Shown piece by piece: positions 3,349 through 6,511 of a stretch of DNA of 64,000 bases. A model generated the notes under the pieces. The model did no database searches. It saw only the letters and a list, made by a program, of their open reading frames with translations, and was not told where the DNA came from. Each line of letters starts with the position of its first letter. Positions within the stretch are counted from its first letter, which is position 1. The stretch lies in contig JAFATB010000023.1 of NCBI GenBank assembly GCA_019244185.1, positions 124,001 through 188,000 on the forward strand, written 5' to 3'. A program made the translations under genes and the position numbers. The stretch is from Acidobacteriota bacterium. GTDB taxonomy: Bacteria > Acidobacteriota > Thermoanaerobaculia > Gp7-AA8.

Positions 3349-3747
3349 ATGCCTCCGCCCTCCCCCTCGATCGGAGACAACCTCCGCCACGCCCGCTCGG
3401 AGCTCGGTCTTTCGCTCGCGAAAGTCGCCGCGCAGGCGGACATCAGCGTGGCCACGCTCTCGCGCATCGAGACCGACAAACAGAACCTCGACGTCGCCCT
3501 ACTCACGAAGCTCGCCCACATCCTCGGCACCGCCCCCGCGGCGCTCTTCGGACAAGCCGACGACGGCGACCGCACGAAAGTCACCCGCACCCTCGCCAGC
3601 CTCCCGCCGCGCGAACGCGCCCGCGTCTTCTTCGACGCCTCCCGCCGCGACGGCGTCTCGATCGACGACCTGCTGTCGATGATCGACGTCCTCCGCGACG
3701 AGCTCTCCCGCCTCCAGCGCAAGAGCCGCGTCCGCCGCCGGAACTGA
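3349..3747 (+). CDS. XRE-family helix-turn-helix transcriptional regulator
   Basis: A 132-residue protein. Residues about 10-68 form an XRE/Cro-type helix-turn-helix: IGDNLRHARSELGLSLAKVA, then a recognition helix in ISVATLSRIE and the closing helix KLAHILGTAPAALF. The C-terminal part (DGVSIDDLLSMIDVLRDELS) is probably a dimerising helix. TACAAT at 3337-3342 lies 6 nt before ATG 3349 and there is no Shine-Dalgarno, so the message is probably leaderless; GTG at 3346 is an alternative start. It lies between the divergent DUF4142 gene and the tRNA. The target is unknown; it could regulate itself or the neighbouring DUF4142 gene. Confidence 0.85.
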   Translation: MPPPSPSIGDNLRHARSELGLSLAKVAAQADISVATLSRIETDKQNLDVALLTKLAHILGTAPAALFGQADDGDRTKVTRTLASLPPRERARVFFDASRRDGVSIDDLLSMIDVLRDELSRLQRKSRVRRRN

Positions 3748-3762
3748 CCGCGCGCCGCGTGC

Positions 3763-3768
3763 TAGAAT
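3763..3768 (+). promoter_or_regulatory. -10 box (TAGAAT) of the tRNA-Gly gene
   Basis: TAGAAT ends 13 nt before the first base of the mature tRNA, a normal distance for a short 5' leader. No convincing -35 box is seen. The same TANNNT hexamer recurs upstream of many protein genes in this window. Confidence 0.6.
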
Positions 3769-3781
3769 CGCGGTCCCTCAA

Positions 3782-3857
3782 GCGGGCATAGCTCAGTTGG
3801 TAGAGTAGGAGCTTCCCAAGCTCTTGGTCGCGGGTTCGAATCCCGTTGCCCGCTCCA
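3782..3857 (+). tRNA. tRNA-Gly (anticodon CCC), CCA encoded
   Basis: A complete cloverleaf is readable: acceptor GCGGGCA/TGCCCGC, D-arm GCTC-AGTTGGTA-GAGT, anticodon stem GGAGC/GCTCT with loop TTCCCAA (anticodon CCC, reading GGG glycine codons), T-arm GCGGG-TTCGAAT-CCCGT, discriminator T, and a genomically encoded CCA at 3855-3857. It sits 34 nt after the XRE gene and 57 nt beyond the 3' end of the SIR2-TPR gene, which faces it. Confidence 0.95.
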
Positions 3858-3914
3858 ATCGATCCACGCTATCGCCTGCCGGCATTGCCACGCCCGCAGC
3901 TCGATGAACACGCA

Positions 3915-5948
3915 CTACTCACATTCATCGATCTCGCGAAGGGCGCGGCGCCGGTCGGCGTCGTTACCGCGCCTGCGCGCAATGTCCGCTGCCGTGGCGA
4001 ACGCGCGCCTGGCGCGCGCCTTTTGCCCCGCGTCGCGCAGCACAATGCCGCGATTGAAGTAATTCGTCCAGAGCCACGGGTCGTTGTGCTTGCGGAGCGT
4101 GGGAGCGGCGGTCGCGAGCTCCGCGATCGCCGCATCGATGTCGCCGTCGAGAATCGCCGTCAGCAGCGCGCGCTGCGTCAACGTCCGCGCTCGTTCCACG
4201 CCGCCTCTCTGTTGCGCGAGCACATCTGCAAGGTGTTCGTCGCTCTCCTCGAGCTTGCGATATACCGCCGGCGCCATTCCTTTGCGATCCCGCAGCACGA
4301 GCGCCTCTTCGTAGAGAAGCCACGCGAGATTGACGCGGACCGCGCGCACCAGATCGGAGCTTCCAGCGACCTGGGCATACGGAAGTGCGCGACGGAACGC
4401 GCGCTCCGCGTCGCGGAATCGGTGCTGGTGAAGCGCGAGGATGCCCGCTTCATTCAGAGCACCGCCGACGCCGTTCCGGTCGCGGAGCCGTGCGTACAGC
4501 CGTGCTGCCCGCCGGTACGCATCCTCGGCCTCCGCGTGCTTGCCGCGGTCGCGAAAGAATGCAGCGAGGCGGTCGTACCCGCGTGCTTCTTGCTCGGGCT
4601 CGTTCCGCGACAGAGCGATCGAATGGCGGAACAGTCGTTCCACTCGCTTCGCCGGCGCACCCGCCTCGAGTTCCATTTCGGCCAGCCGGCGTGACGCGGC
4701 GGCAGGCGTGCCGGGCCGCGTCGAACGGAGTAGTGCGCGGTAGATGGAGCGCGCGAATGCGCGGTCACGTTCCTCGTTGTAAATCGCGAGGTTGTACCGG
4801 TAATCCTGGAGCGTCCACGGGTCACGGCAATGCGGAACGTGGCGCTCGCAGCGGCGCAGCATGCGACCAACGTAGCGGTCGTCCCACAGGCGCATGCTGG
4901 CCATGTTGCTGCCAATGCGCAGCGCGATGCACGAGCGGCCATGTTTCTCAGCGAGGCGGAGCATGCGGCCGCCGACGCGGGCGTAATCACGGGCCAGGCC
5001 GCCGGTCCAGAACATCCGATCGTTGTTCATGAAGACGTCGAGCTTCTCGTCCGCGGTGCGCGCCGCGGCGACCCGCTTTTCCAGCGCCTCGACCGCGCGC
5101 GACTTCTCCTCGGCGAGACGATTGGCCCGCCGCGCTGGTGCGAGCGCTGCGAGGAACGCCGTGATCATCGGGTATTCGCCGTCGACGTACCAGATCGGAC
5201 GGATACCGAGGCGCGCCAGCGCCGCCGCGCGTTTCTTTCGCGACGCGTCGCCCGCGGGCGCGGGAAGAATCGCAAAATGCTGGCGCCGGCCGGCGCGGCG
5301 GATCAGGCGCAAATACCGGTCGCTTTCGACGCGGCAGCCGAGGAACAACACTGGTTTTGCAGAGAACAGCGCGACCAGCATCTCCGCGAGCTGCGCGTCC
5401 TCGGCATAATGCTGGTCGTACTCGCTCCGCGTGAGCACGCGTCCACGCGGCGTTCGCGCGTCGCCGTGAATCTTGATGAGCACGTGCTGTTGCTCGCGCA
5501 AGGCCCGCTTCGCCAACAACGGAAGCCCGCTCCAGAGCTCGTGATCGAACGGCAATTGCGCGTGTAAGAACACCTCCTCGAGGACGTGATCGAAATTAGT
5601 GGTGACGACAGCGCCGCGTGCGAGCCGCGGCACGAGCTCCGCGGCGGTGTCGCGCTGCTTCCGCGGTGCTTTGCCGAAGATGCGTGAAATCTCACGGTCG
5701 AACCACGCGCGGCCGCGCGCCGCGAGGATGTCCTCGGCCGCCTCCTCGAATTCACCGCGGGCGATGCGTTGCCGCACATCGACGGCGGCCTCCGCGCTGC
5801 AGTCTCTGAGGAAACTCGCCCACAGGGGGAAGCCGTACGGAAACGACAAGCCCGCGCCGACGAACGGCGTCACACCCGTGCGCGTGATGGCCGAACGCAA
5901 CGCTGGAATGGCCCGCCCGTTACCAGGAAACTCGTCGATCGGCGTCAC
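3915..5948 (-). CDS. SIR2-domain / TPR protein, candidate anti-phage defence NADase
   Basis: A 677-residue protein. The start is GTG at 5948, with GGAG 8 nt upstream; this leaves a short N-terminus before the SIR2 core, as usual. The N-terminal SIR2-like domain (about 20-290) has GAGLS (31-35), TTNFD (116-120), the catalytic His in IKIHGD (H161) and LFLGC, and lacks the zinc-binding cysteine pairs of deacetylase sirtuins. From about 430 to the end it is helical, with several TPR-like repeats (AEDAYRRAARLYARL, AERAFRRALPYAQ). This SIR2_2-type domain, known from ThsA, DSR and short-Ago partners, cleaves NAD+ during abortive infection. Here the TPR part would be the sensor; that is inference. 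The gene stands alone beside a tRNA gene. Confidence 0.75.
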   Translation of the reverse strand: MTPIDEFPGNGRAIPALRSAITRTGVTPFVGAGLSFPYGFPLWASFLRDCSAEAAVDVRQRIARGEFEEAAEDILAARGRAWFDREISRIFGKAPRKQRDTAAELVPRLARGAVVTTNFDHVLEEVFLHAQLPFDHELWSGLPLLAKRALREQQHVLIKIHGDARTPRGRVLTRSEYDQHYAEDAQLAEMLVALFSAKPVLFLGCRVESDRYLRLIRRAGRRQHFAILPAPAGDASRKKRAAALARLGIRPIWYVDGEYPMITAFLAALAPARRANRLAEEKSRAVEALEKRVAAARTADEKLDVFMNNDRMFWTGGLARDYARVGGRMLRLAEKHGRSCIALRIGSNMASMRLWDDRYVGRMLRRCERHVPHCRDPWTLQDYRYNLAIYNEERDRAFARSIYRALLRSTRPGTPAAASRRLAEMELEAGAPAKRVERLFRHSIALSRNEPEQEARGYDRLAAFFRDRGKHAEAEDAYRRAARLYARLRDRNGVGGALNEAGILALHQHRFRDAERAFRRALPYAQVAGSSDLVRAVRVNLAWLLYEEALVLRDRKGMAPAVYRKLEESDEHLADVLAQQRGGVERARTLTQRALLTAILDGDIDAAIAELATAAPTLRKHNDPWLWTNYFNRGIVLRDAGQKARARRAFATAADIARRRGNDADRRRALREIDECE

Positions 5949-6079
5949 TGAGGAATCTCCGCTTCCACGACACGCGGCTGATGAGGAGCAACACCGCGGC
6001 CACCGCGATACGAGGCATTTGGGCGCACGCGTCGGCTCCGCGACACCCCATCGCACACCTCTTGCACCCGCTGCAACGC

Positions 6080-6511
6080 ATGAAGCGCACACTCGTTTTT
6101 CTCGTCATCTTTGCCGCGGCGTGCGCGTCCGGGAATCAGTCGAATGGCCCGAACGTGCAGGTGGCGTTGCAGCAGACGACCTCGGGGTCGAACATCTTTT
6201 ACTTCCCGGGGCCGGTGAACATTGAATATGTGCTGTCGGTGATGAATCCGACGGCGCAGACGATCACGCTGAAGCGGGTCGATCTCGCGACGCGGGGGCA
6301 GGGGGCGTATCAGTTGCGCACGTCCGGGAACATCAATCTGCGCGTGCCGCCGAACTCCACGGCGTCGCAGGCGATTTACGCGTGGGGGCGTTCGCGTGGC
6401 GGCATGCTGATGTCGGGCGAGCCGGTCACGATGCAGATCACGGCCGTGTTCGACGACGGCACGGGGCGCACGTTCTCGCGGCTCGCGTTGCAGAATCTCG
6501 CGCAGCCGTGA
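6080..6511 (+). CDS. Small lipoprotein with a beta-sandwich-like domain, function unknown
   Basis: A 143-residue protein. ATG at 6080 gives a typical lipoprotein signal (KRTLVFLVIFAAAC, lipobox Cys at about residue 15); the longer in-frame version has no sensible N-terminus. The mature part is strand-rich (VNIEYVLSVMNPTAQTITLKRVDL, then RVPPNSTASQAIYAW and MQITAVFDDGTG), suggesting one immunoglobulin-like sandwich domain. I do not recognise a family. Its 5' end lies 131 bp from the divergent SIR2-TPR gene, and it ends 10 bp before the convergent phosphoesterase gene. Confidence 0.75.
   Translation: MKRTLVFLVIFAAACASGNQSNGPNVQVALQQTTSGSNIFYFPGPVNIEYVLSVMNPTAQTITLKRVDLATRGQGAYQLRTSGNINLRVPPNSTASQAIYAWGRSRGGMLMSGEPVTMQITAVFDDGTGRTFSRLALQNLAQP

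Follow-up and report, generated by a model that had tools for sequence, protein, structure and literature searches.

The 64,000-nucleotide stretch of DNA analysed here, called the window, spans bases 124001-188000 of contig C26 in a 5.3 Mb genome. It carries a gene whose product joins a SIR2 module of the type I RM clade to a TPR arm in one stand-alone protein. Our best explanation, to which we assign a probability of roughly 0.6, is that this SIR2-TPR protein is a horizontally acquired, single-protein anti-phage NADase in which a TPR sensor arm replaces the restriction complex as the trigger of a SIR2 domain from the RM-operon clade. The term 'SIR2-TPR', in that spelling, was not found in the literature searched. 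The features of the locus are:

3915..5948, minus strand: SIR2-TPR gene, 677 aa, GTG start; open frame with Pfam SIR2_2 and TPR_12
5139..5948, minus strand: SIR2 (NADase-type) domain, residues 1-270, with N118 / D120 / H161; from alignment with type I RM SIR2 proteins, AF2 and fold matches
3915..5054, minus strand: predicted TPR superhelix, the proposed sensor, about residues 299-677; from AF2 and fold matches
3782-3857, plus strand: tRNA-Gly(CCC), intact and convergent with the SIR2-TPR gene; from ARAGORN, the sole tRNA found in the window

Results

An intact gene encodes a SIR2 domain and a TPR arm

The SIR2-TPR reading frame is intact over 677 codons from a GTG at position 5948, and a GGAG 8 nt upstream of this start provides a plausible ribosome-binding site. 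A promoter scan of positions 3700-6200 found no sigma-70-type site near the gene. Pfam assigned residues 113-252 of the product to SIR2_2 (PF13289, E 2.8e-23) and recovered TPR_12 (E 8.2e-9), while NTPase, SLOG, STALD and TIR domains were absent in searches down to E 1. Together with the modelled TPR superhelix described below, these matches agree with the initial annotation of the locus, made from the sequence, which had described a SIR2 core joined to a TPR-like C-terminus.

The motifs named in that annotation are also intact, including the catalytic Asn, Asp and His: GAGLS starts at residue 31, TTNFD at 116 and IKIHGD at 158. Six residues (G31, G33, S35, N118, D120 and H161) were invariant in an alignment with five type I RM relatives, and the same six were invariant against eight relatives from viral contigs. 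The only cysteines in the SIR2 part are Cys50 and Cys205, with no CxxC zinc pair; the zinc module of deacetylase sirtuins is therefore absent, as had been claimed. Published accounts give N133 and H171 as the catalytic residues of DSR2 (PMC10981675) and state that Avs5 immunity needs N110 and D112 of its TTNXD motif (PMC12931631). N118, D120 and H161 of the window protein lie in motifs equivalent to those holding the catalytic residues of DSR2 and Avs5, and its SIR2 domain probably hydrolyses NAD+.

Since the full-length AF2 model was weak in the SIR2 part (pLDDT 27-74 by block), the SIR2 domain was modelled by itself, as residues 1-275 aligned with the eight viral-contig relatives, which gave a pLDDT of 85.2 and a pTM of 0.86. 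This model superposed on KomC with Z 25.7 (rmsd 2.4, 247 residues aligned), on BcThsA with Z 25.6 (rmsd 3.0, 261 aligned), on SeThsA with Z 25.1 (rmsd 2.7, 258 aligned) and on DSR2 with a best Z of 23.5 (rmsd 2.9, 252 aligned). Z scores ranged over 19-26 for ThsA and 20-23.5 for DSR2, and were about 20 for Avs5 and about 14-16 for Sir2-HerA. By their titles, the 50 fold matches listed all belonged to Thoeris, KomBC, DSR2, SPARSA, Avs5, Sir2-HerA or human FAM118B. By its motifs and its predicted ThsA/DSR2/KomC-like fold, the domain classifies as a defence-type SIR2 (SIR2_2).

The SIR2 module groups with SIR2 proteins of type I restriction operons

Eleven plasmid records matched the window protein, all in the SIR2 part only, and the TPR part alone had no plasmid match. 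In the best three of the 11 records, from Ketogulonicigenium (36.6% identity), Vibrio (28.4%) and Photobacterium (28.2%), SIR2 is annotated between the type I S and R subunits, with one more hypothetical gene between S and SIR2 in Photobacterium. The next relatives (33% and 32% identity) come from two genomes in the same class as the window, and both lie 3' of hsdM and hsdS; one locus continues into a whole hsdR, and the other holds only the start of hsdR, followed by another ORF near the contig end. Two loci on viral contigs complete the set: L125, by ORF order a near-copy of the Ketogulonicigenium locus, and L124, with an Abi_2 gene between SIR2 and hsdR. At all seven other loci of the clade that were found (six of them distinct), SIR2 thus follows hsdS and precedes an hsdR gene or its start. 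Every one of these loci is a type I restriction operon of the order hsdM-hsdS-SIR2-hsdR, and we refer to the clade as type I RM-operon SIR2. The comparison of homologue neighbourhoods proposed in the initial annotation led to restriction operons. A link of Sir2 proteins with type I RM systems was already stated in 2012 (PMC3506569).

As a side observation, L124:2509-11089 is a type I RM operon in which both SIR2_2 and Abi_2 (PF07751, E 1.5e-51) lie between hsdS and hsdR.

A SIR2-domain tree of 29 rows, built from 33 hits after leaving out L074, L126, L061 and L129, grouped six of the RM loci with the window; the seventh, L074, had been dropped as a near-copy of L125. Support for the clade of RM SIR2 proteins plus the window was 95/92 in this tree and 100/99 in one of 19 rows, from which ten long branches had been removed. 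The window nests within the RM group in the 29-row tree, but this nested position is not significant: RM proteins as one clade beside the window were not rejected (AU p 0.357 and 0.251). Two features make the placement of the window within the clade unsure: its terminal branch is long (1.35-1.5), and its residue composition is unusual in the 29-row tree. Against a profile of five RM SIR2 proteins, the window protein scored 178 bits, compared with 101 for the highest-scoring non-RM protein of the 33 hits; SIR2_2 proteins from seven of the 12 further places where the family carries this domain reached 18 bits at most. On these sequence comparisons, the SIR2 module is assigned to the clade of type I RM-operon SIR2 proteins.

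The window protein nevertheless differs from its relatives in both architecture and setting. The RM-operon proteins are 340-400 aa long, lack TPR repeats and lie inside the operon, whereas the window protein stands alone with a TPR arm; the two share 27-38% identity, the catalytic motifs and a PIWY end motif (P.WY in L124). No hsd match was found within L044, the 20 kb around the window gene, which does not lie between hsdS and hsdR. In the alignment, the RM proteins have about 75-110 extra residues before the SIR2 domain that are absent from the window protein. We speculate that this extension docks to the RM complex, and its absence would fit a module cut loose from such a complex. The literature searched, available in part, held no description of what triggers the RM-embedded SIR2 subunits.

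Outside the clade, six other SIR2_2 proteins of the phylum were scanned, and STALD, TIR, CHAT, pYEATS and TPR occurred as second domains in one each, with no second hit in the sixth. Examples are SIR2_2-CHAT at L094:4976-7285, SIR2_2-TIR at L046:267-1826 and SIR2_2-pYEATS at L047:1042-2436. Such varied partners are as expected of an interchangeable effector.

The C-terminal arm is predicted to form a TPR superhelix

In the AF2 model, the C-terminal arm is a run of helices from about residue 299, with a pLDDT of 69-92 in each ten-residue block past residue 320. Structure prediction, which the initial annotation had named as a check on the C-terminus, gave a TPR superhelix, and the matches to other TPR superhelices among the best 15 rows listed had Z scores of 22-26. 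They included LGN (Z 26.3, rmsd 5.0, 322 aligned), the peptide-sensing RapI (Z 24.1, rmsd 5.1, 339 aligned), NprR (Z 22.5, rmsd 6.8, 333 aligned) and OGT (Z 22.4, rmsd 4.2, 313 aligned). The superposition identifies the modelled arm as a TPR superhelix and says nothing of its ligand.

The protein resembles several defence systems and differs from Thoeris, Avs5 and the RM operons

DSR2 combines an N-terminal SIR2 with a C-terminal sensor in one protein (PMC10981675). The window protein has the same single-protein layout and a similar fold, but DSR2 chains are about 1000 residues long and the window's proposed sensor is a TPR superhelix. Among the PADLOC Dsr models only residues 111-205 matched, to Dsr1, and no model named Dsr2 was listed down to E 1. 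Avs5 likewise has SIR2 at the N-terminus and, in some members, TPR-type repeats at the C-terminus (PMC12931631). Both elements are common to Avs5 and the window protein, and the SIR2 folds match at Z of about 20; the central STAND NTPase of Avs5, however, has no counterpart in the window protein (Pfam to E 1).

The SIR2 fold is also shared with ThsA of Thoeris (Z 19-26), and the PADLOC model ThsA1 matched residues 17-208 (E 1.2e-18). ThsA carries a C-terminal SLOG/STALD domain where the window protein has TPR repeats and no STALD to E 1, and none of the 10 neighbours scanned with PADLOC is a ThsB-type TIR gene. KomC and Sir2-HerA share the fold as well (Z 25.7 and about 14-16, respectively). 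KomBC, the system named Kongming, and Sir2-HerA are multi-gene systems, as their entry titles also indicate, and we know of no TPR arm on their SIR2 subunits, again in line with the titles. The window protein is thus like DSR2 and Avs5 in outline and kin to RM-embedded SIR2 in its SIR2 domain; the features tested place it outside Thoeris, Avs5 and the RM operons.

The gene is rare among relatives and atypical in codon usage

A single match spanning both domains was found only in the genome of the window (G000), that is, in 1 of 18 family genomes, 1 of 148 class genomes and 1 of 396 phylum-sample genomes, where the class and phylum-sample searches scored 8 and 3 candidates per genome and several family genomes are drafts. 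Some match was obtained in 29 class and 73 phylum-sample genomes, each single match being confined to either the SIR2 or the TPR part. The gene is missing from G017, a relative in the same genus. The initial annotation had taken a conserved position in all relatives as evidence against a defence role; the gene is instead confined to one of the 18 family genomes. SIR2_2 domains of any kind occur in seven of these 18, at 12 other places in six other genomes.

No close relative with the same architecture was found in the genomes, viral contigs, phages and plasmids searched. The whole protein had no relative in viral contigs by pattern scan and no match among phage records, which counts against the defence reading, and the genome-contig search gave one weak TPR match to the window protein. 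A distant member of the phylum, G136, encodes a protein of the same SIR2-TPR architecture, recovered as two weak separate matches (27% and 29%), and its SIR2 domain lies far from the window in the tree, in another SIR2 clade. This G136 protein (L091:7192-8931) sits amid genes that by eye resemble those of isoprenoid and lipid biosynthesis, so the SIR2-TPR architecture need not mean an island.

The TPR relative in G015 is broken: L030:9292-9933 matches residues 467-671 at 35% identity with a TGA inside, and no SIR2 part was found in the 2.45 kb examined. The remnant precedes, by about 5 kb, an hsdM gene accompanied by an hsdS-like stretch and a Fic gene. Within L030:8836-9933, this decayed TPR relative stands beside pieces resembling a broken tyrosine recombinase; a 44-residue piece matched Phage_integrase at E 0.014, which falls short of the curated cut-off, and two others matched nothing, so that we treat this recombinase as a hint only.

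The window has 54 called genes with at least 100 codons, and of these the SIR2-TPR gene had both the lowest GC3 (0.795; mean 0.895; z -3.4) and the lowest codon score (z -3.1). Its overall GC is normal (0.673; mean 0.681). The codon usage and the patchy distribution fit arrival from elsewhere, as with patchy defence genes, and are no proof of transfer; we regard the gene as probably acquired horizontally.

The adjacent tRNA gene gives no evidence of an island

ARAGORN placed the 3' side of tRNA-Gly(CCC) 57 nt from the SIR2-TPR stop codon, the distance originally reported. The absence of a duplicated tRNA end also held within the window: the tRNA 3' end was not found a second time and no half-copy rose above shuffled sequences, nor was any tRNA-Gly(CCC) half-copy seen among this genome's matches. 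Half-copies of this tRNA that are at least 40 nt long, at least 90% identical and not at a contig end occurred in five of the 18 family genomes (G005, G007, G013, G015 and G017); hits at or beside contig starts (G010, G011) were left out, and a G012 half-copy at 89% would make six. Half-copies of a control, tRNA-Glu(CTC), were equally frequent (5/18; G008, G009, G013, G014 and G016) under the length and identity cut only, with no contig-end filter. tRNA genes are thus frequent integration sites in this family, and tRNA-Gly(CCC) is not special among them.

In the relatives, 5' halves end at tRNA position 42 and 3' halves start near 27-30, and phage-type integrases lie within a few kilobases of tRNA-Gly(CCC) in G007, G008 and G017. 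L135 and L024-L027 (G007) and L023 (G017) hold tRNA-Gly(CCC) integrations with halves 1-42 and 27/30-76 and related tyrosine recombinases, with crossover near the anticodon loop. Entry of the window gene by tRNA integration was considered and is not supported: no scar was found in the window and no integrase among the nine neighbours scanned, and the control tRNA was halved as often. The tRNA is a possible door, not evidence.

The lipoprotein-like gene at 6080-6511, which has up to four matches per genome, lies downstream of the tRNA here, beyond the SIR2 gene. Homologues lie upstream of the same tRNA in G003, G016, G014, G007 and G008, although in G007 the homologue is upstream of the tRNA 5' half and in G008 one called gene intervenes. 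No clean empty site was found; the flanking gene order was rearranged in the window. Directly before the tRNA gene, at 3349-3747, is a small Xre-type regulator with a CapH-like match (E 4.2e-13) that is probably generic HTH.

PADLOC matched three of the 10 neighbours, and the models concerned, for methyltransferase (mad2) or HTH proteins, are all generic. The tested neighbours are hence not defence genes, which counts against the defence reading. PHROGs matched six of nine neighbours, to methyltransferase, HTH regulator and unknown-function families and, for a beta-lactamase-like protein, a tail-lysin family; no integrase was among the nine, consistent with the earlier statement that phage and integrase genes are missing nearby.

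Discussion

The initial annotation had proposed a stand-alone defence system beside a tRNA gene. The defence candidacy has gained from the RM-operon clade, the defence-type predicted fold, the patchy distribution and the atypical codons, while the tRNA has lost its value as evidence for an island. Several other explanations have to be weighed against an anti-phage NADase. The protein could be an orphaned effector, a SIR2 from a type I RM operon that needs an unlinked partner, with the TPR arm serving as an adaptor and not as a phage sensor. TPR arms often serve as protein-protein adaptors in general, and both the gene order at all seven close loci and the position of the window inside the RM group of the 29-row tree speak for this explanation. 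We consider it rather unlikely, however, given that the 20 kb locus holds no hsd match, that the N-terminal RM extension is missing and that the nesting in the RM group is not significant.

The same arm could sense a cellular peptide or stress, as in Rap or NprR, in which case the NADase would be a toxin or act in a stress response, with phage not its target. The fold matches to RapI and NprR and the lack of defence neighbours among the 10 scanned favour such a role, but TPR superhelices match each other broadly, as the scores for LGN and OGT illustrate, so the peptide-sensor match is not specific; a role in conflict agrees better with the patchy distribution and the RM-operon SIR2 clade, and we judge the cellular role unlikely. 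Quite improbable, in our assessment, is a horizontally gained passenger that is intact without present function and heading for decay like its G015 relative. That broken remnant, with no SIR2 part found nearby, is indeed the one close TPR relative known from the family; against this, the window gene has kept its full reading frame and catalytic motifs, and its ribosome-binding site is plausible.

We therefore return to a single-protein anti-phage NADase, for which defence role, trigger, autoinhibition and oligomerisation are what we infer for the window protein. The TPR superhelix would bind a cue of infection, for which a phage protein or peptide is the likeliest candidate, and binding would relieve inhibition or drive assembly of the SIR2 domains. 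Because no NTPase switch was found, the switch would be either of these two, release from autoinhibition or SIR2 assembly. The SIR2 domain would then hydrolyse NAD+, as in DSR2 and Avs5, and the infected cell would stop growing or die. How the protein arose is more tentative: an effector swap may have occurred, in which an RM SIR2 subunit was captured by a TPR sensor to give a stand-alone immune receptor that lacks the NTPase switch of Avs/NLR proteins and moves between bacteria as cargo.

If true, this explanation would link the SIR2 subunits of type I restriction operons with self-contained SIR2 receptors like DSR2, and would show that one NADase module can answer to a restriction complex in one setting and to a repeat-protein sensor in another. 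As a stand-alone relative of the RM-embedded SIR2 subunits, the window protein offers a simple test case.
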